A DNA stretch of 33,993 nt, taken from Bacteroidales bacterium (GTDB taxonomy: Bacteria; Bacteroidota; Bacteroidia; Bacteroidales; UBA932). The DNA lies in NCBI GenBank assembly GCA_017557535.1, contig JAFYYM010000130.1:1-33993 (forward strand). Direction: 5' to 3'. The first letter of the stretch is position 1. Every line of letters begins with the position of its first letter. This document shows, piece after piece, positions 10,346-31,650 of this stretch. The notes under the pieces are model-generated. The model was not told the DNA's origin. It did no database searches and saw only the letters and a program-made list of their open reading frames with translations. The position numbers were made by a program, and so were the translations under genes.

Positions 10346-10351
10346 TATGCA

Positions 10352-12018: not shown

Positions 12019-12023
12019 AGACT

Positions 12024-12251
12024 ATGGAACTGGAAAAGTTTGTCAAGGATTTTGCCAATCAATTTGACGAGACTGATCCCGAAACGATCACGGCGGCAAC
12101 GGTCTATAAGGATCTGGACGAATGGAGCTCCCTCATCGCCTTCACGGTCATCGCGATGGTGAAGGTGGAGTATGACAAGACCGTTACGGGGGCGGAACTC
12201 CGGCACTGCGAGACGGTCGAGGACCTGTTCAATCTCGTCGCTGCCAAATAG
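12024..12251 (+). CDS. Dedicated acyl carrier protein
   Basis: A 75-residue acidic protein with acyl carrier protein size and pattern. The attachment-site region reads LDEWSSLIAF; Ser36 aligns with the Ser of the usual DSL motif that receives 4'-phosphopantetheine, with Asp replaced by Ser. The C-terminal helix ends TVEDLFNLV, as in ACPs. It is not the housekeeping ACP by context: it lies directly between an acyltransferase and a KAS III homologue, whose ATG immediately follows its stop. It presumably carries an acyl group destined for the polysaccharide. Confidence 0.9.
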   Translation: MELEKFVKDFANQFDETDPETITAATVYKDLDEWSSLIAFTVIAMVKVEYDKTVTGAELRHCETVEDLFNLVAAK

Positions 12252-13256
12252 ATGGAGGCCTTCCTGAGAGCCATCTCCTATGTCCTTCCCGAGGATACGC
12301 TGACCAACGAAGCGCTGGCCGCGGAATTCCCGGAATGGGACGTGGACAAGGTCTATAACAAGGTGGGGGTCCGGAGAAGGCATCTTTCCGGAAAGGACGA
12401 GACAGCCGGGGATTTGGCCGAAAAGGCCGCCCGGAAACTGTTCGAAGAGTACGGTGTCAGCCCAGCCGACATCGATTTCGTTTTGCTCTGTACCCAGAGC
12501 CCGGACCATTTCCTTCCATCGACAGCCTGCATCCTGCAGGACCGCCTCGGCATCCCTGTATCAGCCGGCGCCTTCGATTACAACCTGGGCTGTTCCGGGT
12601 GCATTTATGGTATGGCGGTGGCCAAGGGGCTGATTGCCGCCGGCCTGGCTTCGAACGTCCTTCTGCTCACGGCGGAGACCTATACGAAGTATCTCCATCC
12701 GCAGGATAAGAGCAACAAGACCATTTTTGGGGACGGTGCGGCTGCCTGCCTGATTTCCCGAGAGAAAGGGTTCTCCCGGATCGGGGACTTTGTCCTAGGA
12801 ACGGACGGCTCCGGTGCCGCGAACCTGATGGTCCGCAGCGGCGCCGCCCGGCAGCCGGAAAAGACCGGCCGGTTTACCACGGATGATGACGGTCATTCCA
12901 ATTATGAGGATTACCTGTACATGAATGGAAGCGCCATCTTCAACTTCACGCTGGAGACCGTTCCGCCGCTCATGAAAACGCTGCTCGCCAAGAGCGGACT
13001 GGAAAAGGCCGATGTGGACTATTTCGTTTTCCACCAGGCGAACAAGTATATGCTCAGCACGCTTCGGAAAGTGTGCGGAATCCCGTCCGACCGGTTCTAT
13101 GTGGACTTGGAGGAGACAGGAAATACGGTCTCATCGACCATCTTGATTGGCCTGAAGGAGTGTTTGGATGCAGGGAAGATCGTTCCCGGAATGAAAGTGA
13201 TGGTTTGTGGATTCGGTGTCGGCCTGTCTTACGGGGCCGCTATGCTGCAGTTTTGA
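12252..13256 (+). CDS. Beta-ketoacyl-ACP synthase III homologue (FabH-like)
   Basis: A 334-residue thiolase-fold enzyme with an intact KAS III triad: Cys114 in NLGCSGC, His261 in FHQANKYML and Asn291 in EETGNTVSST. The usual GDGAAACLIS and C-terminal CGFGVGLSYGAA segments are present. FabH enzymes condense an acyl-CoA with malonyl-ACP. FabH relatives in specialised pathways (for example CerJ) instead transfer acyl groups to hydroxyls or sugars. Its place beside a private ACP and two hexapeptide acyltransferases points to a specialised role in making or transferring a short acyl substituent rather than to bulk fatty-acid synthesis. It abuts the ACP with no gap. Confidence 0.9.
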   Translation: MEAFLRAISYVLPEDTLTNEALAAEFPEWDVDKVYNKVGVRRRHLSGKDETAGDLAEKAARKLFEEYGVSPADIDFVLLCTQSPDHFLPSTACILQDRLGIPVSAGAFDYNLGCSGCIYGMAVAKGLIAAGLASNVLLLTAETYTKYLHPQDKSNKTIFGDGAAACLISREKGFSRIGDFVLGTDGSGAANLMVRSGAARQPEKTGRFTTDDDGHSNYEDYLYMNGSAIFNFTLETVPPLMKTLLAKSGLEKADVDYFVFHQANKYMLSTLRKVCGIPSDRFYVDLEETGNTVSSTILIGLKECLDAGKIVPGMKVMVCGFGVGLSYGAAMLQF

Positions 13257-13258
13257 AC

Positions 13259-13990
13259 ATGGATTTTACGCTTGAGAAATACGCCTCCCTCCTCGACGCC
13301 CTGAAGGCTTACGGGTTCAACTCCCTCGTCCTCCGTCACGACGTGGACCTGCTGCCGGGGAATTCCCTTCGGACGGCCAAGATTGAGGCGGAGATGGGGA
13401 TGCGGGGCATCTACTACTTCCGGGCTGTACCGGAAAGTTGGGATGAGGGAATCATCCGGGAAATCGCAGCCCTGGGCCATGAGATCGGCTATCACTACGA
13501 GTCTCTGACGACTTGTGACGGAGATGTGGACAAGGCATACGAAGACTTCTGCCGGAATTTGGATGCGCTGCGGATACTTGTTCCCGTGAATAGCATCTGC
13601 ATGCACGGGAGCCCCCGGTCGCCATACGACAGCAAGGATATCTGGAAGAAGTTCGATTACCACGCGCTCGGAATCGAGAGCGAGCCGTACTTGGACACGG
13701 ATTTCTCGAAGGTGTTCTACCTCACAGACACCGGTCGCCGCTGGGATGGATACAAGGTGAGCGTTCGGGACAAGATCCCTCAGTATCAGGATGAATGGAC
13801 GGCCCGGGGACTGGTGTTCCATTCGACGGACGATGTCATCGACGGTCTCAGTCAGGGACGGATCCCGAAAGACCTGATAATCACGGTCCACCCCCAGCGC
13901 TGGAATCCGTTCGGCATCGCCTGGTGCAAGGAGTTCGTCCTTCAGAATGCGAAGAACATGGTGAAAAGAGTTATCATCCGGAAGAAATGA
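13259..13990 (+). CDS. Polysaccharide deacetylase-like protein (WbmS-type)
   Basis: A 243-residue protein of the NodB-homology superfamily. VLRHDVDLLPG near the N-terminus supplies the base and metal Asp residues, and LGHEIGYHYESL the histidines, followed by SICMHGSPRSPYD. This RHDVD...HEIGYHYE pattern is that of the WbmS-like deacetylase group seen in O-antigen loci. It is expected to remove an N-acyl group from a sugar or to hydrolyse a related amide, likely in the cytoplasm since no signal peptide is seen. The ATG at 13259 was chosen because it lies 2 nt after the ketosynthase stop and starts the conserved fold; an upstream in-frame ATG would overlap the ketosynthase by 184 nt. It overlaps the next gene by 4 nt. 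Confidence 0.82.
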   Translation: MDFTLEKYASLLDALKAYGFNSLVLRHDVDLLPGNSLRTAKIEAEMGMRGIYYFRAVPESWDEGIIREIAALGHEIGYHYESLTTCDGDVDKAYEDFCRNLDALRILVPVNSICMHGSPRSPYDSKDIWKKFDYHALGIESEPYLDTDFSKVFYLTDTGRRWDGYKVSVRDKIPQYQDEWTARGLVFHSTDDVIDGLSQGRIPKDLIITVHPQRWNPFGIAWCKEFVLQNAKNMVKRVIIRKK

Positions 13991-14532
13991 CTGAAGTTTC
14001 TGAACTGTCTGATTTCAAGACACTGTATAAGGCTGATTTGCATCGTTACGGCCATGCAAAGGTGTTGGTCTATATCCGGATTTGGCATTTCCTGCATCGG
14101 AAAGCGCAGACCCGGAAGAATCCGGTTTCCCGTTTTTTCTTCAAAACGCTGTTCCGTCTTCATTCAAGAAGGCGCGGTATCGAAATACCTACCTGCTGCA
14201 AAATAGGCAAAGGACTCTATGTCGGTCATTTTTATAATGTGACCATCAACGGAGGCGCCGTCCTGGGTAATAATTGTAATATTCATAAAGGAGTCACGAT
14301 CGGAGTGGAATGTCGGGGAGCCAGACGAGGCGCTCCGACCATCGGGAATTGTGTCAGCATCGGTGTCAATGCCACCATTGTGGGAAAGATTACGATTGGA
14401 GATGATGTCCTAATTGCGGCAAACTCATTTGTCAACTGTGACATTCCTTCTCATTCCGTCGTTCTCGGGAATCCTTGCATAATCAAACCTCGGGATCATG
14501 CGACAAAAGGTTATGTCGAGGCTTTAGTCTGA
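13987..14532 (+). CDS. Serine acetyltransferase-like hexapeptide acyltransferase
   Basis: A 181-residue acyltransferase of the CysE/colanic acid acetyltransferase type. The N-terminal segment TLYKADLHRYGH resembles the SAT N-terminus. The beta-helix follows with CKIGKGLYVGHFYNVTINGG, LGNNCNIHKGVTIGVECRG, PTIGNCVSIGVNATIVGKI and IAANSFVNCDIPSHSVVLGNP. The helix His (IHKGVTIG) is in place. It probably O- or N-acetylates a sugar or serine attached to the glycan. The start overlaps the preceding stop as ATGA; the longer in-frame extension upstream would overlap the deacetylase gene by about 200 bases and is rejected. Confidence 0.88.
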   Translation: MTEVSELSDFKTLYKADLHRYGHAKVLVYIRIWHFLHRKAQTRKNPVSRFFFKTLFRLHSRRRGIEIPTCCKIGKGLYVGHFYNVTINGGAVLGNNCNIHKGVTIGVECRGARRGAPTIGNCVSIGVNATIVGKITIGDDVLIAANSFVNCDIPSHSVVLGNPCIIKPRDHATKGYVEALV

Positions 14533-14598: not shown

Positions 14599-15402
14599 AT
14601 GATTTTCACGAGAGAATTCCGGACGGTCATCGTCTTCCTGTTTGTCGCTTCGGCAGCGACTTCTTGTGTGACCAACCGAAAGATTGCCTATCTGCAGGAT
14701 ATGACGCATGGGACTCAGATTCAGTTGGAGGATAGATTTGAGGCTGTTATTGCTCCTTATGACGAATTAGACATCGTCGTATCCAGTTTTGATGCAGAGT
14801 TGGCGAGACCTTTCAACCTTGGATCAATTTCTCGGGAAACCAGTGGTAGTGGAGGCGGCATGAACCTTGCTTATCTGGTGGACCAATTTGGGAATATCGA
14901 GATGCCAGTCTTAGGAACTATCCACGCTGCTGGTCTTACTCGTCTCAAATTACAAGAGACAATACGGGACCTCCTTATTTCTGGTGGCTATATTAGCGAC
15001 CCATATGTGATGGCTCGCTTTCGCAATTATAAAATCTTCTTTATTGGTTCCAATGGTGGCAAGGCTATCACCATTCCCAATGAAAGGTGCACATTCTTGG
15101 AAGCCCTCGCCCTATCAGGCGACATCAATGTCTTCACGGACCGGAATAAAATTACTGTTATGCGAGAGATTGATGGAAAGATGGTGACTCGCTATTTGGA
15201 CCCACGTTCCTCCAAGGTCTTCAAGGACCCGTTCTTCATGATGCAGCAGAACGATTTCATCATTACCAGGAATACCCAGTATCGGAATTTCATGGAGTCC
15301 TATAGTTTATTGTCGCCCATTATTTCCATCTTCTCGCTGGGTACAGGATTGCTTTCCTTGTATATGACTTATCGAGTCTATTTGAATACGGGTCGTTTAT
15401 AG
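14599..15402 (+). CDS. Polysaccharide export outer-membrane lipoprotein (Wza/BexD-like)
   Basis: A 267-residue export protein. A lipoprotein signal peptide ends in the lipobox AATSC (Cys23). It is followed by the polysaccharide-export domain beginning IAPYDELDIVVSSFDAELARPF and a SLBB-like region around FFIGSNGGKAITIPNERCTFLEALALSGDI. A hydrophobic segment near the C-terminus (LLSPIISIFSLGTGLLSLYM) may insert in the outer membrane. It is shorter than E. coli Wza, as is normal for Bacteroidota versions. It forms the outer-membrane channel with the Wzc homologue encoded 21 nt downstream. Its own promoter lies upstream. Confidence 0.93.
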   Translation: MIFTREFRTVIVFLFVASAATSCVTNRKIAYLQDMTHGTQIQLEDRFEAVIAPYDELDIVVSSFDAELARPFNLGSISRETSGSGGGMNLAYLVDQFGNIEMPVLGTIHAAGLTRLKLQETIRDLLISGGYISDPYVMARFRNYKIFFIGSNGGKAITIPNERCTFLEALALSGDINVFTDRNKITVMREIDGKMVTRYLDPRSSKVFKDPFFMMQQNDFIITRNTQYRNFMESYSLLSPIISIFSLGTGLLSLYMTYRVYLNTGRL

Positions 15403-15423
15403 TCAGCCACAATTTTTCTCGCT

Positions 15424-17919
15424 ATGTCTTCTACGAACCAGGATGCCGAACTCGCCTTTCTCGAAAAGAAGGACGCTCATTCTCTCTCTCCCAAAGATAT
15501 CTTTTTCACCATCCTCCGGAACCTGCACTGGCTGATTCTCTGCGCTGCGGCGGGTGCGGTGATCGCTTATTTCCGGAGCGACAAGGCGGACCGGATTTAT
15601 GAGAGTCACGCCAAGATAAAAATCACTTCCGTCACCCGCAACCGCCTGGATAACGGCGCTTCGATGCTGGAAAACATCACAAACCGGCGGGTGGCTGTCA
15701 CCATGAACGCCCTCAATGACGAGATCATCGTCCTCAAGTCCGAGACGCCGATGATTGAGGTGGCCAAGCGGCTGAACCTCGGGATGTGGTACAAGTACCG
15801 GACGAAACTGATCAAGCGGGACCGCGACCTGTACCGCGAGTCCCCGGTTGCCGTTCGGATGCTCGATGTTAAAGAAACGGATTATGCGACCCTCATCGTT
15901 ACGGTGGCCAAGGACTCCTCCATCGTCGTTCAGATTGGCGAGTACGAACCTGTAAATGCGCATTTGGGTGATACGGTTACAACCTCCCTGGGACGTGTAG
16001 TTATCCAGCCTACCTGGGCCCTCCGGGAACTGTTCTATGACAATCCCATCACGGTTTCCCATCGGAATATCTATGACGTGGCGGAATCCTACCGGTACAA
16101 AGTGAATGTTTCTCGCAACAGCTCTTCCGACGGCATTATCAATTTCTCACTTCACGATACATCCCCGCAGCGAGCAGCCGATGTCTTGAACGAAATGATT
16201 GCCGTCTATAATGAAAATACCATCGAGGAGAAGAAGGAAATCATCCGGCAGACCTCGGAGTACATCAATACCCGAATTGCGCAGTTGGATGCCGAACTCG
16301 GTGCGAAGGAGTCGCAGATTGCCAGTTTTAAGCGGGAGAATAATCTGCTAAGCCTGCAAGATTATGGGCAGTCCTACTTGAGCGCCAGCAAAGAGTCCTC
16401 CGAAGAGTTGGAGCGCCTTCAGTTGCAGATTTCCCATGCGCAGTACTTGATACAGTTCACGAATTCCAATACGGAGAACAAGCTCTTCCCGGTTACGATC
16501 AACGTCGAGGACGAAAATATCCGGAGTACGATCCGGCGGTTCAACGAACTGGTGCTGAAACTGGACAAGTATAAGGAATCCGGTTCTTCCAACAACCCGA
16601 TTGTGCGGGACATGCTCCTGGAGCAAAGCGCCCTGAAGAGCAACTTGAACCAACTGCTGGTCTCCTATATCGGCGCTCTTCAGCAGAAAATGGGCTCCGT
16701 TCAGGCTATCAGCAACCAGGCGGCCGAGAAAATCCGCGAAGTCCCGGGCGGCCAGCTCTACATTGACAATATCTCCCGCGTGCAGGGCATCAAAGAGGGG
16801 TTGTATCTGAATCTGCTCAGCCGTCGTGAAGAACTCCTCATCAGCCAGCCTTCCATCGGCGGCAATGCCTATATCATTGACAAGGCGCGAGTGAACGCGA
16901 CCCCGATTTCTCCCAAGCCTAAGAAGAGCGCCATGATGGGTTTGCTGATTGGTCTTCTCATTCCGTTTGCGGTTTTCTTCCTCCGCAAGATGCTGGATAC
17001 GAAGGTCCGTTACCGTAAGGATGTGGAGAAATATGTCGATATCCCTATCTTGGGCGAAATCCCCTCCAGAGGCAAGGAGGATAATCGTGATATCGTCGTG
17101 GCTGACAAGGGCCGTGACTCGATGACGGAGGCCTTCCGAATACTCCGCAGTAACATCGAGTTCACGCGGATACCCGGTCAGAAGGCGACCACTTACCTGT
17201 TCCTGTCCCTGATGGAAGGCTCCGGTAAGACGTTCCTAACCACGAACCTGGCCGCTAGCCTCGCCATGGTGGAAAAGAAAGTCATCCTGCTGGATCTGGA
17301 CCTTCGCAAAGGAACGCTTACGCACAATGTCTCTTCCCGGAAGAATCCCGGTTTCTCCAACTACCTTTCCGGCAAGACGGACGATTTCGAGAGTATTATC
17401 TCCCACGATGTCTTCGCTCCCGGCGTGGATATGGTCACTTCCGGCAAGTTGCCGCCGAACCCGGCCGAACTGCTCTCCAGCAGTCGCCTAGACACCATGA
17501 TGGCATGGCTGCGCGAGCGGTACGACTATATCCTCATCGACGCCGTTCCGGCCGGAATCGTGGCCGATGCCACCATCCTCCGCCGTTTTGCGGACGTGAG
17601 CGTGTTCATCCTCCGTTCCAACCTGGTGGACAAGCGGATGCTGCCCGACCTGCAGGAACTCAAGGATCAGGACAAGTTCCCGAACATGATGATTATCCTC
17701 AACGGTGTCGAATACAAGAAGCATAGCGGTTACGGCAGTTATGGCTACGGCTACGGAGCCGGTTACGGCTATGGCTACGGATACGGCTATGGTTACGGAT
17801 ACGGCTATGGACAGCAGTACGGTTACGGCAATTCGGAAAAGGAAGAAAAGGGTATCAAGAAGTTATTCCACCGTAATCAGAAGCATCACGAGGAGGAGGA
17901 AGATACGGCCACCGATTAA
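15424..17919 (+). CDS. wzc: Wzc-like polysaccharide co-polymerase / tyrosine autokinase with Tyr-Gly tail
   Basis: An 831-residue inner-membrane BY-kinase. It has a Wzz domain with a first membrane helix (about residues 36-52), a long periplasmic coiled-coil region (about 250-440), a second helix (about 505-522) and a cytoplasmic kinase. The kinase shows Walker A MEGSGKT (597-603), Walker A' VILLDLDLRKG (620-630) and Walker B YILIDAVPA (702-710). The C-terminal tail holds 14 tyrosines between residues 770 and 801, almost all as Tyr-Gly dipeptides, followed by a charged end. Such tails are autophosphorylated and control chain length and export with the Wza partner just upstream. The gene is distinctly G/C-rich compared with wza. 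Confidence 0.95.
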   Translation: MSSTNQDAELAFLEKKDAHSLSPKDIFFTILRNLHWLILCAAAGAVIAYFRSDKADRIYESHAKIKITSVTRNRLDNGASMLENITNRRVAVTMNALNDEIIVLKSETPMIEVAKRLNLGMWYKYRTKLIKRDRDLYRESPVAVRMLDVKETDYATLIVTVAKDSSIVVQIGEYEPVNAHLGDTVTTSLGRVVIQPTWALRELFYDNPITVSHRNIYDVAESYRYKVNVSRNSSSDGIINFSLHDTSPQRAADVLNEMIAVYNENTIEEKKEIIRQTSEYINTRIAQLDAELGAKESQIASFKRENNLLSLQDYGQSYLSASKESSEELERLQLQISHAQYLIQFTNSNTENKLFPVTINVEDENIRSTIRRFNELVLKLDKYKESGSSNNPIVRDMLLEQSALKSNLNQLLVSYIGALQQKMGSVQAISNQAAEKIREVPGGQLYIDNISRVQGIKEGLYLNLLSRREELLISQPSIGGNAYIIDKARVNATPISPKPKKSAMMGLLIGLLIPFAVFFLRKMLDTKVRYRKDVEKYVDIPILGEIPSRGKEDNRDIVVADKGRDSMTEAFRILRSNIEFTRIPGQKATTYLFLSLMEGSGKTFLTTNLAASLAMVEKKVILLDLDLRKGTLTHNVSSRKNPGFSNYLSGKTDDFESIISHDVFAPGVDMVTSGKLPPNPAELLSSSRLDTMMAWLRERYDYILIDAVPAGIVADATILRRFADVSVFILRSNLVDKRMLPDLQELKDQDKFPNMMIILNGVEYKKHSGYGSYGYGYGAGYGYGYGYGYGYGYGYGQQYGYGNSEKEEKGIKKLFHRNQKHHEEEEDTATD
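17776..17811 (+). repeat. 18-nt tandem duplication inside the Wzc Tyr-Gly tail
   Basis: Two adjacent 18-base units (17776-17793 and 17794-17811) reading TACGGATACGGCTATGG plus one variable base encode six residues each (three Tyr-Gly). They differ only at their last base. They are embedded in a longer less perfect Tyr-Gly codon run from 17731 to 17829. The near-identity suggests recent in-frame duplication. Confidence 0.75.
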
Positions 17920-19011: not shown

Positions 19012-20124
19012 ATGAAAATGGATAGCAGGATAACTGTTACCTCGCCATTGCTGCCCGATCTGGACGAGTTTCATGAGATGCTCAAGGATATCTGGGCCAG
19101 CAAATGGATTACCAATAACGGCTCGTTCCACAAGAAGCTGGAAGCCGCCTTGGCCGAGTACTTGAAGGTGCCCTATATCAGCCTGTTTACCAACGGTACG
19201 CTGCCGCTCCTGACTGCACTTCAGGCATTACGGATTACAGGCGAGGTCATTACAACGCCATACAGTTTTGTCGCTACCACCCACGCCATCTGGTGGAACG
19301 GATGCCGTCCGGTGTTCGTGGATATCGACCCCGCGACCGGCAATATCGACCCGGACCGGATCGAGGCAGCCATCACGCCCAGGACGACGGCAATCTTGCC
19401 CGTCCATGTGTACGGGAATCCCTGCGACACGAAACGGATTCAAATGATTGCGGACAAGTATGGTCTGAAGGTTATCTATGATGCCGCCCATGCGTTCGGG
19501 GTGGAAGTCGAGGGGGAAAGCCTGTTGAACGCCGGGGATTTGTCCACGCTCAGTTTCCATGCCACCAAGGTTTTCAATACGATCGAGGGCGGCGCCATGG
19601 TGATGCACGACGCGGAGATGAAAAAACGGATCGACTATCTCAAGAACTTCGGCTTTGCCAATGAGGTCGAGGTCGTTGGCCCCGGCATCAACAGCAAGAT
19701 GGATGAAATGCGGTCCGCTTACGGCCTCCTGAATCTCAAGCAGGTCGATGCCGCCATCGAAGCCCGCCGTCAGGTCGCCCTCCGCTATCGGGAGGCCTTG
19801 AAGGATGTGGAAGGCATCACATTCTTCCAGGATTTGCCCGGGGTGCGGCATAATTATTCTTACTTCCCAATCTTCGTGGAGGCTGATAAATACGGGATGA
19901 CGCGGGACGAGCTTTACTTCAAGATGAAGGAAAAAGGTGTTTTGGGACGTCGGTATTTTTATCCGCTCATCAGTTCCTTCAGCACTTATAAAGGACTGCC
20001 TAGCGCGGCGAAGGAGAATCTTCCGCAGGCGCACAAGATGGCGGAGAGTGTCATCTGCCTGCCGATGCATCATGGACTTAATGATGAAGACATCAGCCGA
20101 GTGCTTGAAATGATCGTCGAGTAA
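19012..20124 (+). CDS. DegT/DnrJ/EryC1-family sugar aminotransferase
   Basis: A 370-residue PLP-dependent aminotransferase (fold type I) acting on a nucleotide-linked ketosugar. The TNGTLPLLTAL and TTPYSFVATTHAIWWNG segments bind cofactor phosphate and substrate. IYDAAHAFG carries Asp157, which pairs with the pyridine nitrogen, and SFHATKVFNTIEGG carries the Schiff-base Lys186. The arrangement is like that of WecE/VioA-type enzymes that make 4-amino-4,6-dideoxy sugars, though 3-amino products cannot be excluded. It is separated by 30 nt from the upstream gene and by 4 nt from the ATP-grasp gene, whose substrate may be the new amino group. Confidence 0.93.
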   Translation: MKMDSRITVTSPLLPDLDEFHEMLKDIWASKWITNNGSFHKKLEAALAEYLKVPYISLFTNGTLPLLTALQALRITGEVITTPYSFVATTHAIWWNGCRPVFVDIDPATGNIDPDRIEAAITPRTTAILPVHVYGNPCDTKRIQMIADKYGLKVIYDAAHAFGVEVEGESLLNAGDLSTLSFHATKVFNTIEGGAMVMHDAEMKKRIDYLKNFGFANEVEVVGPGINSKMDEMRSAYGLLNLKQVDAAIEARRQVALRYREALKDVEGITFFQDLPGVRHNYSYFPIFVEADKYGMTRDELYFKMKEKGVLGRRYFYPLISSFSTYKGLPSAAKENLPQAHKMAESVICLPMHHGLNDEDISRVLEMIVE

Positions 20125-24724: not shown

Positions 24725-25645
24725 ATGACAGAAATTGAGAGAATCCTTGAAAAGGGAGTCATTAATGAGGATTTCCTGAAAGAAGAGATAAGAAATGGCT
24801 TTTTAGTCACTACTGAGCGCAAGAAATTGTGGGCGATCATGCTGGATATGACGCTGGAATTCGATAGAGTCTGTAAAGAACATGGCTTGAAGTATTTCCT
24901 ATGGGGAGGCAGCCTGTTAGGCGCTGTTCGCCATCAGGGAATCATCCCATGGGATGATGACATTGATGTTATCATGCCGCGGAAGGACTACGAAAAATTC
25001 TTGTTGTTGGGGGACGAGTTTAAGGAACCATATTTTTTCCAAACTCCTTATACGGATCCGGAGAGTTGCTATACATTCGCCAAAATAAGGAATAGCAATA
25101 CAACCGGTGTCATTGATTTGTTCAGATATCAGAAATTCAATCACGGTATCTGGATTTCTGTATTCCCATTGGATAATTGGAAATTGGAGGGTGGGGAGGA
25201 AAAGTTCAACCGGATTAAATCCCTTTCGCTGGATTGTTCGACCTTTATGAGGATGAAGAATCCTCATTTGTCTGACGACAATAAAAAACGAGTGGAGGGC
25301 TTCATTAATCGAAGAGTAAATCCCTTGAAAGCTTATGAAGAGATTTTTAGATTAACGGGAGAAAATCAAGACGACGCTTGCGAGTATGTGGCTTTCGATA
25401 GTTGCACTGTCTACTCCTATAGCAGAAGCATTTTTCCTGCGGAGGATTTTGCAAATCAAGTTTGGGTAGGTGTGGAAGGATTCCTGTTGCCTATTTCGAA
25501 TGGTTATGACAGAGTGCTGACCATTGTTTATGGTGACTATATGGTTTTCCCACCTGTGGAAGAGAGAGGGAGGTGGCACGCAGGGACAACTTTTAATCCG
25601 GATATTCCATATATGGAGTATTTGAGGAGCATATTAATCGATTAA
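24725..25645 (+). CDS. LicD-family phosphotransferase
   Basis: A 306-residue member of the LicD family. LKYFLWGGSLLGAVRHQGII is followed by the metal-binding PWDDDIDVIMPR (Asp77, Asp78, Asp79, Asp81), the family hallmark. LicD proteins move phosphocholine or similar groups from CDP- or CMP-activated donors to sugars. The next gene is a cytidylyltransferase/PEP mutase fusion, so here the likely donor is a CMP-activated phosphonate and the acceptor the capsule repeat unit. The 35 bases before it are A/T-rich with no recognisable promoter box. Confidence 0.92.
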   Translation: MTEIERILEKGVINEDFLKEEIRNGFLVTTERKKLWAIMLDMTLEFDRVCKEHGLKYFLWGGSLLGAVRHQGIIPWDDDIDVIMPRKDYEKFLLLGDEFKEPYFFQTPYTDPESCYTFAKIRNSNTTGVIDLFRYQKFNHGIWISVFPLDNWKLEGGEEKFNRIKSLSLDCSTFMRMKNPHLSDDNKKRVEGFINRRVNPLKAYEEIFRLTGENQDDACEYVAFDSCTVYSYSRSIFPAEDFANQVWVGVEGFLLPISNGYDRVLTIVYGDYMVFPPVEERGRWHAGTTFNPDIPYMEYLRSILID

Positions 25646-25763
25646 CCAATTTGTGTCCACAAGGTCCGGTTATATCCGGATATATAACAACGGTAATGAC
25701 ACGTCCAGATTACAGTTTTCAGTTCCGATTCGTTTTTTATTCATTTAGAGTAGTTCTTTCAAA
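25646..25763 (+). other. 118-nt intergenic region with a perfect palindrome
   Basis: The longest gap between genes in the window, between licD and the PEP mutase fusion. It contains the perfect 14-nt palindrome TATATCCGGATATA (25671-25684), flanked by GT and AC, which could be an operator or a short hairpin. A T-run at about 25731-25737 is too far from it to form an ordinary terminator. No clear TAnnTTTG box is visible. Confidence 0.5.
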
Positions 25764-27773
25764 ATGAGAGCTTTAATACTCAACAGCGGTCTGGGCCAGC
25801 GTATGGGGGTGATTACCAGCGAGCACCCCAAATGCATGACGGAGATTTCGTACAAGAATACGATCCTGAGCAGGCAACTGCAGATCCTGGTTTCGTTCGG
25901 AGTGGAAGAGGTTGTGATGACGACAGGATACTACGATCAGATTCTCGTCGATTACTGTAACGCCCTGCATTTGCCCCTGAAGTACACATTCGTCAATAAT
26001 CCCCTCTACGACAAGACCAACTATATCTACAGCATCTACTGCGCGAAAGAGCAGTTGAAGGATGATGACATCATCTTGATGCACGGAGACCTGGTATTCG
26101 AGAGCCGTGTAATGGAGGAAATCATCGATAGTCCCAATAGTTGCATGGTTGTCAGCAGTACGCTACCTCTTCCGGAGAAGGACTTCAAGGCTGTCATTAT
26201 TGGAGGAAAGATAGAGAAGGTGGGTATTGAGTTCTTTGATGATGCCATGGCGGCTCAGCCGCTCTACAAGATTCTGAAGGAGGACTGGCTCGTCTGGCTT
26301 CAGAACATTGAAAGGTTCTGTGAAGCAGGCACCAGAAAGGTGTATGCCGAGAATGCTTTTAATGAGGTCTCCGACAAATGCAATATCTATCCGTGCGATG
26401 TGAAGGATATGCTCTGTGCCGAGATTGACACTCCTGAAGACTTGAAGGTGGTGAGTCAGAAAGTGGCAGAGGTGAATGAGCGTACTGTATACATGTGCTT
26501 CAGTACGGAGTACCTACACAGCGGCCACATGGCAATCATCAACAAGGCTCGGCGCTTGGGGCGCCTCATCGTCGGTGTACTTTCGGATGAGGCGGTTTCC
26601 AGTTTCAAACGCTATCCTTTGATTCCCTTTGCAGAGCGCAAGGCTTTGTTTGAGAATTTGGCTGGCGTGGAGCGTGTTGTAACGCAGGACACACTCTCCT
26701 ACGCCACGAATCTGCGGGAACTGAAACCTGATTTCGTCGTTCATGGAAATGATTGGTGCGAAGGATTTCAGAAGCCTATCCGTCAGGAAGTCTGTGACGT
26801 ATTGGCCGAGTATGGCGGGGCATTGGTGGAGTATCCCTATAGCAACAATCCTGTCTACAAAGAATTGGATGCCAATCACAGGGCGGAAGCATCCATGCCG
26901 GATGTCCGTCGCGGGCGTCTGCGCAAGCTTATTTCGATGAAAGGGCTGGTCACTGCGCTGGAAGCTCATAGCGGCATCACCGGCCTGATTGTGGAGAATA
27001 CGAAAGTGCTTCAGGATGGAAAGACCTATCAATTCGATGCCATGTGGGTCAGTTCGCTCTGTGATTCGACTGCCAAAGGAAAGCCGGACATTGAACTGGT
27101 TGATATGACCAGCCGCTTCCGGACCATCGATGACATCATGGAGGTGACGACCAAACCTATCATTTTCGACGGCGATACCGGTGGCTTGACGGAGCATTTT
27201 GTCTATACAGTCCGTTCTTTGGAACGTATGGGCGTTTCCATGGTCATCATTGAGGACAAGACTGGATTGAAGAAGAATAGTTTGTTTGGTACCGAAGTTA
27301 AACAGACGCAGGCCTCCATTCCCGAATTCTGCGAGAAAATTATGGCCGGAAAGAAAGCTCAAAAAACCAGGGAATTCATGATTTGTGCCCGGATTGAAAG
27401 CCTGATTCTGGAGCGGGGAATGGAAGATGCTTTGGAACGCGCTTTCGCTTTCATCGAGGCTGGGGCGGATGCCATCATGATACACAGCCGAAAGAAGGAT
27501 CCTGCCGAGATCTTTGAGTTTGTGGCCAAGTTCCGCGAGAAGGATACGACCACTCCGATCGTTGTGGTCCCGACTTCGTTCAATACCGTAACCGAACAAG
27601 AGTTCAAGGATAGGGGCGTGAATGTGGTTATCTATGCGAACCAGCTTACCCGGACCGGCTTCCCTGCCATGCAGGATGCCGCCCGTACCATCCTGGAAAA
27701 CCACCGGGCCAAAGAATGTGATGATAAGTGTATGTCTATCAGGGATATCATCACCTTGATTCCGGAAGAATAA
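25764..27773 (+). CDS. aepX: Three-domain fusion: PntC/LicC-like NTP transferase + TagD-like cytidylyltransferase + phosphoenolpyruvate mutase
   Basis: A 669-residue cytoplasmic fusion. Residues 1-235 are a LicC/PntC-type nucleotidyltransferase (ILNSGLGQRMG, HPKCMTEI, MHGDLVF, AEIDTPEDLKVV). Residues 240-375 are a cytidylyltransferase-like fold with the HxGH motif HSGH (252-255) and PFAERKALFENL. Residues 388-669 are PEP mutase, with the diagnostic EDKTGLKKNS (497-506), which separates PEP mutase from isocitrate lyase relatives, and IIFDGDTGG. PEP mutase converts phosphoenolpyruvate to phosphonopyruvate, the entry step of nearly all phosphonates. The transferase domains probably activate the finished phosphonate with CTP for the LicD enzyme. 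The symbol applies to the mutase domain by analogy with B. fragilis. The next gene begins 14 nt downstream. Confidence 0.92.
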   Translation: MRALILNSGLGQRMGVITSEHPKCMTEISYKNTILSRQLQILVSFGVEEVVMTTGYYDQILVDYCNALHLPLKYTFVNNPLYDKTNYIYSIYCAKEQLKDDDIILMHGDLVFESRVMEEIIDSPNSCMVVSSTLPLPEKDFKAVIIGGKIEKVGIEFFDDAMAAQPLYKILKEDWLVWLQNIERFCEAGTRKVYAENAFNEVSDKCNIYPCDVKDMLCAEIDTPEDLKVVSQKVAEVNERTVYMCFSTEYLHSGHMAIINKARRLGRLIVGVLSDEAVSSFKRYPLIPFAERKALFENLAGVERVVTQDTLSYATNLRELKPDFVVHGNDWCEGFQKPIRQEVCDVLAEYGGALVEYPYSNNPVYKELDANHRAEASMPDVRRGRLRKLISMKGLVTALEAHSGITGLIVENTKVLQDGKTYQFDAMWVSSLCDSTAKGKPDIELVDMTSRFRTIDDIMEVTTKPIIFDGDTGGLTEHFVYTVRSLERMGVSMVIIEDKTGLKKNSLFGTEVKQTQASIPEFCEKIMAGKKAQKTREFMICARIESLILERGMEDALERAFAFIEAGADAIMIHSRKKDPAEIFEFVAKFREKDTTTPIVVVPTSFNTVTEQEFKDRGVNVVIYANQLTRTGFPAMQDAARTILENHRAKECDDKCMSIRDIITLIPEE

Positions 27774-27787
27774 GAAGGGACTACACC

Positions 27788-28912
27788 ATGATTAGACCTG
27801 AATTCTTTATAGAGAAACTGAGAGAGGGCGGTATCGATTGCTTCGCGGGTGTCCCTGACAGTCTGTTGAAGAACATCTGTGCCTATATTACGGACCATTT
27901 TGATTCCCGGCACAACATCATTGCAGCCAACGAAGGCGCCGCGGTAGGCCTGGCTGCCGGTCATTACCTCGCTACGGGTCAACCCGCCTGTGTATATATG
28001 CAGAACAGCGGCGAGGGTAATGCCATCAACCCGTTAGCCTCGCTGATGGACCCTGATGTATATAACATCCCCGTTCTCCTGCTGATTGGCTGGCGGGGCC
28101 GTCCGGGTGTTCACGACGAACCCCAGCACGTAAAGCAGGGCAAGGTGACAACGAGCCTGCTGGAAACGATGGGTATCAGCTACGATGTCCTGAGCAAGGA
28201 AGAAGACATTGCAGAAAAGCAGATTGCCCAAGCCATCGAAGCCCTCAAGCAGAAAGAAGTCTATGCCTTGGTAATCGAGAAGGATACCTTCGAGGATTAC
28301 AAGCTTCAAAACGTGGAACGGAATAGTCTCACGATGAGTCGTGAAGAGGCTATCCGGACGGTTGCCGCCGTCCTTGGCGAGAGAGACTGCATCGTAAGTA
28401 CCACGGGAATGATTAGCCGAGAGCTTTTTGAATATCGTACAGCGAGGAATCAAGGACATGAACGCGATTTCCTCACCGTGGGCTCCATGGGACACGCTTC
28501 CCAGATTGCCTTGGGCATTGCCCTGGCAAAGCCGGACCGTAGGGTCTGGTGTTTTGACGGAGACGGCGCCGCCATCATGCATATGGGCAGTATGGCGATC
28601 GTGGCGAACCAGGCTCCTGCGAATTATGTCCATGTGGTGTTCAATAATGGTGCGCATGATAGCGTGGGTGGGCAGCCGACGGTTGGTTTGAAGATGGATC
28701 TTCCTGCTGTTGCAAAAGCGGTGGGTTATCCTTATTGTTTTAGTGTGGATAATAAGGATGGGCTTTTAAGGACCTTGGATGAAGCAAAGTGTCTGGAAGG
28801 GCCTGTTCTGATTGAAGTAAAGGTGAAAAAGGGCAATCGTAAGGATCTAGGAAGGCCGACAACGACACCGATTCAGAATAAAGAGGCCCTGATGTCTTTC
28901 CTTGCGAAATAG
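27788..28912 (+). CDS. aepY: Phosphonopyruvate decarboxylase
   Basis: A 374-residue thiamine-diphosphate enzyme that drives phosphonate synthesis by decarboxylating phosphonopyruvate to phosphonoacetaldehyde. The N-terminal PYR domain has FAGVPDSLLKN and the cofactor-activating Glu49 in ANEGAAVGLAAGHY. The C-terminal PP domain has the ThDP/Mg motif GDGAAIMHMG starting at residue 258 and ending VVFNNGAHDSVGG. ATG 27788 was chosen because it begins the conserved IRPEFFIEKLREGGIDCFAGVPD segment; a longer in-frame ATG lies inside the fusion gene. Base composition becomes A/T-richer from about 28640 onward, unlike the first three quarters. Confidence 0.94.
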   Translation: MIRPEFFIEKLREGGIDCFAGVPDSLLKNICAYITDHFDSRHNIIAANEGAAVGLAAGHYLATGQPACVYMQNSGEGNAINPLASLMDPDVYNIPVLLLIGWRGRPGVHDEPQHVKQGKVTTSLLETMGISYDVLSKEEDIAEKQIAQAIEALKQKEVYALVIEKDTFEDYKLQNVERNSLTMSREEAIRTVAAVLGERDCIVSTTGMISRELFEYRTARNQGHERDFLTVGSMGHASQIALGIALAKPDRRVWCFDGDGAAIMHMGSMAIVANQAPANYVHVVFNNGAHDSVGGQPTVGLKMDLPAVAKAVGYPYCFSVDNKDGLLRTLDEAKCLEGPVLIEVKVKKGNRKDLGRPTTTPIQNKEALMSFLAK

Positions 28913-28916
28913 TATT

Positions 28917-30044
28917 ATGCAAAGGATCCTAAACGGAATAGCGAGCCTTCCGGAAATCCTCGATGAGGTCGGTTGCCAGAAACTGTTCTTGGTTATCGAC
29001 TCGTCCTTCCCATTTTTGAATATCAAGGATGCGATAGAATCGTTGCCAGTGGAGGAGAAGGTAACGTTTTCCGATTTTACCCCCAATCCTCTTTATGAGC
29101 AAGTGTGTAAAGGCATCGATTTGCTGAAAGCTTCCAACAGCGATGCCATCCTCGCTGTCGGGGGTGGCAGTGCAATAGATGTGGCCAAGTGCATCAAGTT
29201 GGCCGTGCTTGCACAGGAGGGGAATGCGGCGGTTATCCCACCGCTAGTGTCACAGATATTACATATTGATGGATCCAGGATTCCTTTCATTGCGATTCCT
29301 ACAACAGCGGGAACCGGAAGTGAATCCACACATAATGCCGTGATGTATTATGAGGGTGTCAAGCAGACGGTTACCAATGATGGTGTGCTTCCTGATTATG
29401 CGGTATTGGAACCTTCCGTACTGAAAACGTTGCCGCTCTATCAAAAGAAATGCACGATGATGGATGCCCTCTGCCAAGGCATCGAATCTTGGTGGTCGGT
29501 TAATTCAACCGATGAGAGCAAAGAATACTCCAGGAAAGCCGTTGAGCTCATTATGACGAACTGGCGGAAGTACATCTTTGATAATGATGATGAGGCTGCT
29601 GCGCAGATTATGCTGGCCGCAAACTACGGAGGGCGTGCTATAAACATCGCTCAAACTACCGCGGCCCATGCTATGAGTTACAAGATTACTTCATTGTACA
29701 AGATACCTCATGGGCATGCGGTAGCAGTATGTTTGCCGGAGATTTGGGATTATATGATAGACCATATGGACCAAGTTAAGGATTCACGTGGCCAGATGTA
29801 TCTGGCCAGAACATTCATGGACATCGCAGATGCTATGGACTCGGGAAATGCTCGGATAGCGATTTCCTCATTCCGTCAGATGATGCTCGACATGGGCTTA
29901 TCGAATCCTGTCTCAGAGAATAAGGAAGAGGATATACTCGTTTTGTCCCAGTCGGTCAATCCTGTCCGTCTGAAAAACAATCCGATTGGTTTGCGTGAAG
30001 AGGTAATCAGGGAATTGTATTCAATTATTGTCAAATACAACTAA
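28917..30044 (+). CDS. phpC: Iron-type alcohol dehydrogenase, probable phosphonoacetaldehyde reductase
   Basis: A 375-residue group III alcohol dehydrogenase. NAD-binding GGGSAID lies at residues 82-88, IPTTAGTGSE at 127-136, and metal ligands Asp183, His251 and His265 (TAAHAMSY, IPHGHAVAV). The second ligand of the canonical DxxxH is Gln187 in DALCQGIESWWS. Directly after phosphonopyruvate decarboxylase, the natural substrate is phosphonoacetaldehyde, giving 2-hydroxyethylphosphonate, as PhpC does in phosphinothricin biosynthesis. No AEP transaminase lies in the cassette. The ATG at 28917 is 4 nt after the upstream stop; an in-frame TTG at 28902 is less likely. Function is inferred from context and family. 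Confidence 0.8.
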   Translation: MQRILNGIASLPEILDEVGCQKLFLVIDSSFPFLNIKDAIESLPVEEKVTFSDFTPNPLYEQVCKGIDLLKASNSDAILAVGGGSAIDVAKCIKLAVLAQEGNAAVIPPLVSQILHIDGSRIPFIAIPTTAGTGSESTHNAVMYYEGVKQTVTNDGVLPDYAVLEPSVLKTLPLYQKKCTMMDALCQGIESWWSVNSTDESKEYSRKAVELIMTNWRKYIFDNDDEAAAQIMLAANYGGRAINIAQTTAAHAMSYKITSLYKIPHGHAVAVCLPEIWDYMIDHMDQVKDSRGQMYLARTFMDIADAMDSGNARIAISSFRQMMLDMGLSNPVSENKEEDILVLSQSVNPVRLKNNPIGLREEVIRELYSIIVKYN

Positions 30045-30054
30045 TTCACACATT

Positions 30055-31206
30055 TTGTACGATTATCTGATCATCGGCAGCGGCCTCTATGGCTCCACTT
30101 TCGCCCACTTCGCCAAGAAGGCGGGCAAACGCTGCCTTGTGCTTGAAAAACGATACCATCTCGGAGGGAATGTATACTGCGAGGATGTGGAGGGTATCCG
30201 GGTGCACAAGTACGGCGCCCACATTTTCCATACGTCCAACAAGAAGGTCTGGGATTTTGTCAATTCCATCGTGCCGTTCAACCGCTACACCAATTGTCCG
30301 GTGGCCAACTATCGTGGGGAATTGTACAACTTGCCGTTCAATATGAACACGTTCTATCAGATGTGGGGGGTGACCACACCTGAGGAGGCGAGATTCAAGA
30401 TTGAAGAGCAAAAAAAGGAAGCCTTGGAAAAGATGCAGGCTGGGGGAGTCTCGGAGCCCAGAAACTTAGAAGAGCAGGCACTATTGCTTGTTGGACGGGA
30501 TATCTATGAACGGCTGATCAAGGGATACACCGAGAAGCAGTGGGGCCGTCCTTGCACGGACCTTCCCGCATTCATAATCAAGCGGTTGCCGGTGCGTTTC
30601 GTCTATGACAACAATTACTTCAACGATGATTACCAAGGTATTCCGATTGGAGGCTATAATCGATTGATCGAAGGCCTTTTGGATGGGGTGGAGTGCCGGA
30701 CGGGCGTAGATTTCCTGGAGAACCGGGAATACTGGAGTTCATTGGCCGATAAGATTGTCTATACGGGGCCCATCGATGCTTTCTATGACTACCGCTTCGG
30801 TCATCTGGAATGGCGTACGGTGCGTTTTGAGCAAGAGACTTTGGATGTCCCCAATTATCAGGGTAATGCCGTGGTGAACTATACCGACCGGGAGACGCCT
30901 TGGACCCGCATCATCGAGCATAAGCACTTCGACACCTTCGGCGCCGCCGTGTATGAGAATCCCCGCACCGTCATCTCCCGCGAGTACAGCACGGAATGGC
31001 AGCCCGGGATGGAAGCATTCTACACCATAAACGACGAGCGCAACTCCGCACTTTACCAGAAGTACAAGGCTCTTGCCGATCAGGAAAATAAGGTTTTATT
31101 CGGCGGCCGTCTCGCGGAATACAAATATTACGACATGGCGCCGGTCATTGAAACCGTGATGGACCGGGTCTCTACAATGGCGTTACTTCCCCCCTCCCGA
31201 TACTGA
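30055..31206 (+). CDS. glf: UDP-galactopyranose mutase
   Basis: A 383-residue flavoenzyme that converts UDP-galactopyranose to UDP-galactofuranose, the donor for galactofuranose residues. The FAD-binding YDYLIIGSGLYGSTFAH starts the protein, and VHKYGAHIFHTSN, FNMNTFYQMWG, LIKGYTEKQWGRPC, RLPVRFVYDNNYFNDDYQGIPIGGYN and VNYTDRETPWTRIIEHKHF are UGM signatures. No ATG precedes the fold. The TTG at 30055, placed exactly before YDY, is the most natural start; a TTG at 30028 overlapping the upstream gene is an alternative. The last dozen residues extend beyond the usual UGM end and overlap the opposite-strand antiterminator by 35 nt. Confidence 0.95.
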   Translation: MYDYLIIGSGLYGSTFAHFAKKAGKRCLVLEKRYHLGGNVYCEDVEGIRVHKYGAHIFHTSNKKVWDFVNSIVPFNRYTNCPVANYRGELYNLPFNMNTFYQMWGVTTPEEARFKIEEQKKEALEKMQAGGVSEPRNLEEQALLLVGRDIYERLIKGYTEKQWGRPCTDLPAFIIKRLPVRFVYDNNYFNDDYQGIPIGGYNRLIEGLLDGVECRTGVDFLENREYWSSLADKIVYTGPIDAFYDYRFGHLEWRTVRFEQETLDVPNYQGNAVVNYTDRETPWTRIIEHKHFDTFGAAVYENPRTVISREYSTEWQPGMEAFYTINDERNSALYQKYKALADQENKVLFGGRLAEYKYYDMAPVIETVMDRVSTMALLPPSRY

Positions 31207-31633
31207 TCTTCGCGCACAGCAGCGTCTTGATGCGCACCATGAGGTGAGCCCCGTTCGGGGTTTCGACCACTTCTCCTTCCACGCCTTTCAGCGGTCCCCG
31301 GACCACACGGACCTTGTCGCCTTTGGCGATGGGGACGTCGGCCATGCATTCCGCCTCGGGATGCTCCATCACGCGGATGAAGTCTTCCATCTGCTTGTCG
31401 GGGACTTCCAGGAGGGTGTGGGTTTCGTGGTCGATGAGGAACCGGCCTTTCACCTCGCCGGCGTTCACGAGATTGAGCGCCAACGCTTTATCCGTGTGCA
31501 GGAAGAGCATGGTCCGATAAGCGGGCGGGATGTAGAACCCCACGTGCCGCTCGCCGAGCCTTTCGGCGACCTTCTTCCACTGCCCCCACCTTGTGATGAC
31601 GACGAACCAGGCGATATGCTTTGCGGAATCCAT
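31172..31633 (-). CDS. UpxY-like NusG-family transcription antiterminator
   Basis: A 153-residue NusG paralogue. The N-terminal NGN domain starts AWFVVITRWGQWKKVAERL, and a KOW motif follows at about residues 104-117 (KGDKVRVVRGPLKG). In Bacteroides such UpxY proteins are specific antiterminators that let RNA polymerase read through the leader of a capsule operon, and are normally the first gene of it. Here the gene lies at the 3' end, pointing back into the operon, and its end overlaps glf tail-to-tail by 35 nt. ATG 31633 was chosen; a TTG at 31645 lies within the predicted -7 box. Whether it serves this operon or another is not visible. Confidence 0.88.
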   Translation of the reverse strand: MDSAKHIAWFVVITRWGQWKKVAERLGERHVGFYIPPAYRTMLFLHTDKALALNLVNAGEVKGRFLIDHETHTLLEVPDKQMEDFIRVMEHPEAECMADVPIAKGDKVRVVRGPLKGVEGEVVETPNGAHLMVRIKTLLCAKISIGRGEVTPL

Positions 31634-31642
31634 GCTGCGGTG

Positions 31643-31650
31643 CAAAGGTA
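31643..31650 (-). promoter_or_regulatory. Candidate -7 box for the antiterminator gene
   Basis: On the minus strand TACCTTTG matches TAnnTTTG. It ends 9 nt before the ATG at 31633, so the transcript would have almost no leader. No clear -33 element is visible at the usual distance. Confidence 0.5.

Follow-up and report, generated by a model that had tools for sequence, protein, structure and literature searches.

The window analysed here, a stretch of 33,993 nucleotides from a Prevotella-like member of the Bacteroidales, contains a four-gene phosphonate set at positions 24725-30044 within a capsule locus, and our analysis confirms that this set is real. As originally predicted, the genes run in the order licD, cytidylyltransferase/PEP mutase, phosphonopyruvate decarboxylase and iron-type alcohol dehydrogenase (Fe-ADH), and 4/4 are open at these coordinates, together with the following features:

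14599..17919, + strand: polysaccharide export protein and chain-length/tyrosine autokinase protein (PF02563, PF13807, PF13614 and TIGR01007 over cut-off)
24725..25645, + strand: LicD-family phosphotransferase (PF04991)
25764..27773, + strand: triple-fusion PEP mutase, 669 aa (PF12804, PF01467 and PF13714 over cut-off; TIGR02320, 403 bits)
25764..26477, + strand: N-terminal nucleotidyltransferase domain (PF12804) with His107, from motif comparison with Treponema denticola PntC
26484..26880, + strand: Fom1-like CyT domain, HSGH kept, GISST region changed to NNPVYKEL (match to 5x3d, Fom1)
26916..27773, + strand: PEP mutase domain with the EDKTGLKKNS motif (TIGR02320, residues 386-668)
27788..28912, + strand: phosphonopyruvate decarboxylase, 374 aa from ATG 27788 (TIGR03297)
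28917..30044, + strand: Fe-type alcohol dehydrogenase, predicted phosphonoacetaldehyde reductase, 375 aa from ATG 28917 (PF00465)
30028..31206, + strand: UDP-galactopyranose mutase, the next gene (TIGR00031, 381 bits)

The second gene had been described as a cytidylyltransferase/PEP mutase; domains for both activities are indeed present, and we refine the description to a triple fusion of PF12804, PF01467 and PEP mutase (PepM). Its TIGR02320 score compares with a cut-off of 319.55, and the EDKX5NS motif is present, while the decarboxylase (Ppd) scores 516.5 bits against TIGR03297 (cut-off 312.5) and LicD 137.7 bits against PF04991 (cut-off 22.6). The decarboxylase and dehydrogenase (380 aa) reading frames as listed open at GTG 27728 and TTG 28902, and the ATG codons given above are, as read by eye, the likelier starts. 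Between licD and the PEP mutase gene downstream of it lie 118 bp, and a LicD 44-45% identical to that of the window occupies the same place in two other loci (L030 and L059). The predicted role of the window LicD is transfer of a CMP-bound phosphonate onto a glycan. The export and autokinase genes appear to form the capsule context of the phosphonate operon, and UDP-galactopyranose mutase belongs to the capsule locus, not to the phosphonate branch.

The dehydrogenase scores over cut-off for PF00465 and PF25137 and is the only Fe-ADH found in its own genome (E 1e-10). No NCBIfam equivalog is matched over cut-off (the best is lactaldehyde reductase, 145 of 523), and the profile for PsrA-type Phn_Fe-ADH (TIGR03405) yields 136.7 of 423.7 bits. 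Its predicted metal ligands are D188, Q192, H256 and H270 (numbering of the 380-aa frame), and Asp-Gln-His-His ligands occur in 74/74 dehydrogenase homologs; the Gln ligand was rejected as a diagnostic, given that a generic Fe-ADH (L175) has Gln too. The sulfoacetaldehyde reductase BkTauF (PDB 6jko), which works on the sulfonate analogue of phosphonoacetaldehyde, belongs to the same family and has the Asp-Gln-His-His Zn site in common with the window dehydrogenase, where Thr257 and the Phe265/Tyr substrate position are also retained, whereas the third substrate residue, Phe252, is Ile247. However, BkTauF serves a taurine pathway and the match is only about 107 bits; in the Fe-ADH tree (near-copies dropped, 89 to 43) BkTauF joins with weak support (81/60), as a partial sequence on a long branch.

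A search with the dehydrogenase alone recovered 56 loci, among which the decarboxylase is encoded in 54/56, PepM in 53/56 and the two together in 53/56, and the other 2/56 carry phosphonate-catabolism genes, one of them including a PhnX phosphonoacetaldehyde hydrolase over cut-off. This gene order of dehydrogenase, PepM and decarboxylase is not chance. Moreover, Ppd-FeADH fusions are found among relatives in two lineages (L073/L142 and L135), and an FeADH-LicD fusion in another relative (L080). Together, the relatives, the fusions and the active-site residues support phosphonoacetaldehyde as the probable substrate of the dehydrogenase, and the window Fe-ADH is encoded with PepM and Ppd, as expected of a PhpC/FomC-type reductase.

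The original prediction saw no AEP transaminase and took one encoded upstream as potential counter-evidence. In the window's own assembly (95% complete, 139 contigs) none is found over cut-off (best match 32.8 bits vs 360.8) and none lies beside the operon, so that neither the locus nor the assembled genome shows the transaminase of an AEP (aepXYZ) pathway. The window opens with the first base of its contig, and with that end of the contig missing, the search does not reach the sequence further upstream. Among the 29 other Fe-ADH genomes searched, 0/29 have an AEP transaminase over cut-off and 3/29 have a class V match under it (127-152 of 361 bits); the same genome search detected the enzyme over cut-off in 5/5 genomes with a transaminase locus. 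None was seen in the 56 loci recovered by the dehydrogenase alone, and the one class V-like protein of locus L028 scores 86 bits, true AEP transaminases scoring 298-882.

Because an Fe-ADH stands where the AEP transaminase would, 2-hydroxyethylphosphonate (HEP) is the expected product, as had been proposed, and the relatives, fusions and active-site residues agree. The sequence basis of a HEP pathway comprises the family assignments, the lack of an AEP transaminase over cut-off, the conservation of the gene set, the motifs and the fusions, and from it we consider it probable that the operon makes HEP and attaches it to the capsule. The lack of a second Fe-ADH match in the genome, the likeness of the CyT domain to Fom1 CyT and the RefSeq product name of the Segatella copri ortholog also favour this reading. 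We infer each catalytic step as follows. PEP mutase would convert phosphoenolpyruvate to phosphonopyruvate, the decarboxylase would convert this to phosphonoacetaldehyde, and the Fe-ADH, whose substrate this would be, would use NAD(P)H to reduce it to HEP in place of transamination to AEP. CMP-HEP would then be formed by the fused nucleotidyltransferase, with the N-terminal PF12804 domain carrying His107 most likely the working one, and LicD would transfer the phosphonate to its presumed acceptor, a polysaccharide hydroxyl.

PhpC and FomC are Fe-ADHs, and the primary paper on the HEP pathway of this type is said to be Shao 2008. The exopolysaccharide phosphonate of Glycomyces is reportedly HEP. 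The PepM-Ppd-PhpC/FomC pathway of Streptomyces antibiotics leads to HEP (PMC9381506); the window set resembles it in reaching HEP by three steps, the third catalysed by a dehydrogenase, yet lies instead inside a capsule locus with LicD. Phosphonoglycans of Glycomyces and Stackebrandtia (Yu 2014, as cited in PMC8931226) likewise bear phosphonate on exopolysaccharide, but these are actinobacteria, and the comparison made here is of product. AEP in the capsule of Bacteroides fragilis is the textbook example for the group, and CMP activation with LicD-type transfer has been proposed for AEP pathways (PMC6697681). The B. fragilis aepXYZ/PntC pathways have PepM and decarboxylase in common with the window set, whereas an AEP transaminase stands where the window has its Fe-ADH. 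Fom1 of the fosfomycin pathway is a CyT-PepM fusion, as in the window, but the window protein adds the N-terminal PF12804 domain and its CyT is without GISST. A polysaccharide locus of Segatella copri DSM 18205 (NZ_CP085933) holds the same triple fusion together with the decarboxylase and a dehydrogenase 71% identical to that of the window, although there the operon is followed by a TagF-like CDP-glycerol glycerophosphotransferase, and no LicD was detected in the 36.9-kb stretch.

Activation with CTP had also been predicted. The Fom1-like CyT, the obvious candidate for this step, lacks GISST in the window, and the N-terminal domain more likely performs it. In the PDB, the CyT is matched best by the Fom1 CyT (5x3d; 127 bits, 59/120 aligned positions identical), which makes CMP-HEP (PMC6697681). 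Where a Fom1-type CMP-HEP synthase has HxGH and GISST, the window has HSGH, with GISST, part of a CTP-binding motif of the CyT family (PMC8262930), replaced; we predict that this CyT is not the main activator. It may not be idle, however, because HxGH is retained in 45/47 distinct triple fusions. In the N-terminal domain, His107 occupies the position of Glu104 of Treponema denticola PntC, which contacts the AEP amine. Histidine is found there in 54/54 triple-fusion rows, Glu in 9/9 PntCs of AEP loci (T. denticola included), and the Asp109 and EID site is kept in 9/9 aligned.

These nucleotidyltransferase motifs appear to track the HEP and AEP branches, a new pattern that has exceptions and represents about three evolutionary events. 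Thus 47/47 distinct triple fusions are without the CyT GISST and have His in place of Glu, the CyT is intact in 32/32 double fusions of Fe-ADH loci, and 5/5 AEP loci of the window's order (B. fragilis itself left out) combine loss of the CyT HxGH with a Glu PntC. The CyT domain alone was rejected as a marker of HEP, since AEP loci also have CyT-PepM fusions. Identical CyT-PepM proteins were dropped before counting (98 to 91), as were identical PepM domains for the PepM tree (98 to 89); four loci whose PepM has no fused CyT (L083, L155, L156, L157) fall outside the CyT counts. PntCs were detected by profile search, the set taking in L100, L152 and L156, and four AEP loci come from genomes of another class of the phylum. 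For three loci (L099 of genome G196, L139 of G671 and L141 of G617) no AEP transaminase was found in the genomes (E 1e-30). With a profile of phosphonate-locus dehydrogenases, G617 has no Fe-ADH match and G196 and G671 have matches of 101 and 99 bits; generic Fe-ADHs score 96-146 bits and phosphonate-locus members at least 294, so that the G196 and G671 proteins resemble generic Fe-ADHs by score, unlike locus members. L099 and L139 end at contig ends, whereas L141 continues, with metallophosphatase and short-chain dehydrogenase genes instead.

A Bacteroidales version of HEP decoration had been expected to be unusual, and sets ending in an AEP transaminase to be the norm; neither expectation is supported. 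Two evenly drawn samples of the window's order gave 37 distinct genomes with pepM; the Fe-ADH is present in 29/37 and a transaminase in the locus in 4/37, which suggests that the Fe-ADH gene set is the common version in this group. This is far above the share of just over 20% of phosphonate-producing genomes for the reductase gene given in a published survey (PMC9381506). In RefSeq, the ortholog of Segatella copri already bears the product name phosphonoacetaldehyde reductase. A LicD or a TagF-like transferase, as a neighbour or as a fusion, occurs in 30/79 distinct Fe-ADH loci (L072, L074 and L079, without PepM in the piece examined, left out), and LicD adjacency was rejected as a general feature, with 34/79 having no LicD/TagF-like gene in the piece examined.

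Several alternative hypotheses may explain the locus. The most substantial, though still unlikely, is that HEP is made but the CyT makes CMP-HEP, with the N-terminal domain acting on phosphocholine, a sugar phosphate or similar. The identities shared with the Fom1 CyT and the widely retained HxGH would fit, and the CyT appears to suffice in the 32 double-fusion Fe-ADH loci; against this, the CTP-binding GISST is gone from every distinct triple fusion, and the N-terminal domain keeps its Asp109 and EID site. We regard it as very improbable that the substrate of the dehydrogenase is some other aldehyde of capsule synthesis and that AEP comes from an unlinked aminotransferase. In its favour are the versatility of Fe-ADHs, a non-exhaustive coverage of general aminotransferases and a DegT-type aminotransferase (19012-20124) in the locus; however, the DegT-type protein comes nearest to sugar transaminases (TIGR04427, 299 bits, under cut-off), the dehydrogenase adjoins the decarboxylase in nearly all loci it recovers, two lineages have this pair fused, no PhnW/AepZ exceeds cut-off in 30/30 Fe-ADH genomes, and the nucleotidyltransferase is without the amine-contact Glu.

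HepD- and MpnS-type enzymes require oxygen. There is equally little chance, in our view, that HEP is only an intermediate, which an unlinked enzyme converts to methylphosphonate or hydroxymethylphosphonate before use. In other organisms the products of MpnS and HepD derive from HEP (PMC9381506), and the window need hold only part of a pathway; yet the Pfam matches of 30 scanned window ORFs include no oxygenase-type family, the relatives live as anaerobes in gut and rumen, and the FeADH-LicD fusion of L080 points to direct use of HEP. Direct attachment of HEP to the capsule is our preferred reading. More tentatively, and with somewhat less conviction than would favour it outright, we propose that Bacteroidales usually carry HEP rather than AEP as their surface phosphonate, the choice being set by a matched pair of reductase or transaminase with a fitting nucleotidyltransferase. 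The window's triple fusion would then belong to a clade also present in Clostridia; in this clade, a Glu-to-His change would have retuned a PntC-type domain to make CMP-HEP in place of the fused Fom1-type domain, whose CTP motif was lost.

Orthologs in named strains (Segatella copri DSM 18205, Bacteroides propionicigenes NSJ-90, Bacteroides cutis Marseille-P4118 and Xylanibacter ruminicola D31d) allow direct testing of the HEP prediction, and the motif pattern, if valid, would allow sequence alone to hint at whether HEP or AEP is made. Cell-surface phosphonates withstand hydrolysis (PMC8931226) and may shape the encounters of capsules with hosts, phages and grazers. If most pepM-bearing Bacteroidales make HEP, their decoration would bear an alcohol in place of the amine of AEP, and the capsule would therefore not be made zwitterionic as it is by AEP.

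The licD, PEP mutase, decarboxylase and iron-type dehydrogenase genes on which the original prediction was built are real, and are placed as follows.

24725-25645: LicD
25764-27773: PEP mutase, triple fusion (curated profile, 403 bits over a cut-off of 320)
27788-28912: phosphonopyruvate decarboxylase, Ppd (curated profile, 516 bits over a cut-off of 312.5)
28917-30044: iron-type alcohol dehydrogenase, Fe-ADH, directly after the decarboxylase
Next gene after the Fe-ADH: UDP-galactopyranose mutase

The PEP mutase combines a PF12804 nucleotidyltransferase, a PF01467 cytidylyltransferase (CyT) and the PepM domain, a triple-fusion architecture published earlier for 42 of 1485 Ppm proteins (PMC6697681), and the operon lies in a capsule locus with glycosyltransferases, a polysaccharide export protein and a chain-length/tyrosine kinase protein. 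Directly behind the UDP-galactopyranose mutase gene is an UpxY-family antiterminator (31172-31645, minus strand; 93 bits against a cut-off of 100), encoded in the direction opposite to that of the capsule genes. Within the capsule locus, a CoA-ligase-like protein (91 bits, under its cut-off), hexapeptide proteins and a beta-ketoacyl-ACP synthase III (9023-14532) perhaps form an acyl decoration set.

An upstream AEP transaminase (PhnW/AepZ) had been named as evidence against 2-hydroxyethylphosphonate (HEP), yet none over the cut-off was found in the window's genome (G000, 95% complete; top score 32.8 bits against 360.8). The contig begins with the window's first base, so sequence farther upstream is unseen, and the genome-wide search answers this refuting condition as far as the assembly reaches. 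None of 29 other Fe-ADH genomes has a transaminase over the cut-off, the class V matches in three of them reaching 127-152 of 361 bits, and all five searched genomes with a transaminase locus do. G000 has a single Fe-ADH, the locus copy (PF00465 search, E 1e-10).

A scan of public genomes with the window Fe-ADH protein as sole query gave 56 loci, with Ppd in 54 and PepM in 53, and no AEP transaminase was seen among them, bar a class V-like protein of 86 bits in L028 (true ones score 298 to 882). The two without Ppd are phosphonate-catabolism loci, one of which, L079, encodes the phosphonoacetaldehyde hydrolase PhnX (344 bits against a cut-off of 220) along with a PhnD-like protein, and the other, L074, PhnM over its cut-off and PhnK- and PhnL-like proteins under theirs. 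Moreover, fusions of the Fe-ADH link neighbouring steps: with Ppd in L073 (same contig as L142) and L135, whose dehydrogenase belongs to the other sub-clade, and with LicD in L080, whose genome has its decarboxylase on a different contig.

Phosphonate-locus dehydrogenases (89, thinned to 43 tree rows) form one clade (support 97/99) against seven other Fe-ADHs and BkTauF (PDB 6jko, the second-best PDB match to the window Fe-ADH), which reduces the sulfonate counterpart of phosphonoacetaldehyde, sulfoacetaldehyde. The predicted metal ligands of the window enzyme (Asp188, Gln192, His256 and His270 of the 380-aa ORF) are identical in 74/74 homologs; those for Zn in BkTauF are Asp192, Gln196, His261 and His275, the Gln being termed atypical (PMC6616044). 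Window Thr252 and Tyr260 stand at the positions of BkTauF Thr257 and Phe265, the latter replaced by Tyr in some homologs, where T257A and F265A abolished activity, whereas Ile247 occupies that of Phe252, whose F252A mutant retained ~28% (PMC6616044). This likeness should not be over-read, because a generic Fe-ADH (L175) shares the Gln and the join of the phosphonate-locus clade to BkTauF has support of only 81/60.

Frequency was assessed by a PEP mutase search in evenly drawn genomes of the order, family and phylum, followed by neighbourhood reading. In the order sample, pepM occurred in 19 of 393 genomes, with Fe-ADH beside Ppd in 16, a transaminase in the locus in one and neither seen in two (in one the locus reaches the end of its contig, and G051 has an over-cut-off transaminase elsewhere). 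The family sample gave 19 of 398, with 14, 3 and 2 respectively (in L080 Fe-ADH is beside PepM only, and in L140 the transaminase is about 2.8 kb from Ppd). These samples overlap in one pepM genome, the window's, leaving 37 distinct: 29 with Fe-ADH, 4 with a transaminase in the locus and 4 with neither. Consequently, the supposition that a Bacteroidales HEP version is unusual fails; the window locus has the commonest arrangement in its order. Fe-ADH dominance is a matter of that order, since the phylum sample (pepM in 10 of 395, the window's included) gave 3 Fe-ADH against 6 transaminase loci, and 1 with neither.

The CTP-binding motifs of this cytidylyltransferase family are HxGH and RTXGISTT (PMC8262930), read as HPGH and GISST in the Fom1 CyT, which makes CMP-HEP (PMC6697681). 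Among 91 distinct CyT-PepM proteins, double fusions (CyT and PepM) in Fe-ADH loci keep both motifs (32/32); triple fusions, all 47 in Fe-ADH loci, have lost GISST (47/47) and mostly keep HxGH (45/47), which suggests that their CyT still has some role. In the AEP cytidylyltransferase PntC of T. denticola, Glu104 and Glu196 are positioned for contact with the AEP amine (PMC6697681). At the Glu104 position the N-terminal domain of triple fusions has His (47/47 distinct; 54/54 rows with duplicates), against Glu in 9/9 PntCs of AEP loci, T. denticola among them, and profile-profile alignment confirmed this column at 99.2% probability. In the window's order, HxGH has been lost in all five transaminase loci, each of which carries a PntC with Glu, free or transaminase-fused. 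A PntC profile gave these PntCs 364-434 bits, and nothing exceeded 42 bits among the 32 double-fusion loci with Fe-ADH, three of which had weak matches. Genome-wide (E 1e-15), three of three double-fusion Fe-ADH genomes tried gave no PntC-like match, and G000 gave only its own triple-fusion N-terminal domain.

In the PepM tree (INDEPENDENCE; 89 distinct domains) all triple fusions, Clostridia included, form one clade (100/100), so that the 47 rows amount to about one event. The nearest named kin of the window PepM is Xylanibacter ruminicola D31d (Prevotellaceae, Bacteroidales), followed by uncultured Prevotellaceae, and the window's order is taken as Bacteroidales on this basis. The order's transaminase loci fall inside Fe-ADH double fusions at two places, L100 on a long branch, and L134, L140, L138 and L082 with two loci assigned to neither branch (99/97), HxGH being lost and PntC present at both. 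By this tree, about three events, rather than dozens, underlie the motif pattern. Six loci from Clostridia (L061, L065, L068, L070, L071, L077) share the triple fusion but have the order PepM-FeADH-Ppd; they are nested among Bacteroidales rows and probably derive from horizontal transfer.

Exceptions exist. In another class of the phylum, four transaminase loci of one family, f142 (L149, L151, L152, L153), retain both HxGH and GISST and carry Ser in place of the KR-motif Lys, possibly marking an AEP-type CyT; the piece showed no PntC for three, and L152 has a partial one with Glu at the piece's edge. An extra nucleotidyltransferase occurs in two of the 47 triple-fusion loci, L042 (Glu) and L069 (Ser); that of L042 (9171-10982), a 604-aa protein with a PntC-like start (129 bits) adjoining the Fe-ADH locus, may provide a second activation, of phosphonate or phosphocholine. 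In L083 and L156, where a PF12804 domain is fused behind another type of PepM, the His/Glu position is occupied by Tyr or Phe. Three loci of the 91-protein set were assigned to neither branch. L141 (1-9288; G617), with PepM and decarboxylase, lacks Fe-ADH and transaminase, has a metallophosphatase, a short-chain dehydrogenase and, read by eye, a TagD-like/oxidoreductase fusion, and is perhaps a third branch.

Of 79 distinct Fe-ADH loci, 26 have an adjacent LicD, one a fused LicD and three an adjacent TagF-like CDP-glycerol glycerophosphotransferase; 15 have either type at another place in the piece, and neither was found in the piece for 34, some pieces being cut short while others may use other transferases. 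LicD and TagF-like transferases both use CMP-linked donors, which fits CMP-HEP. The predicted enzyme chain to HEP is well supported by sequence, and we consider it likely correct. Of CTP activation and LicD transfer, the latter is plausible; for the former, the N-terminal PF12804 domain appears a better candidate than the CyT, which is without GISST.

This kind of locus is already known: Segatella copri DSM 18205 has a 71% identical Fe-ADH ortholog named phosphonoacetaldehyde reductase in RefSeq, a published survey puts phpC at slightly above 20% of phosphonate-producing genomes (PMC9381506), and a PPM/PPD/adh1 cluster of Methanocorpusculum is in print (PMC10035134). The share of this arrangement within Bacteroidales was not found in the literature searched. 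New here are the Fe-ADH share in the order and the nucleotidyltransferase switch.
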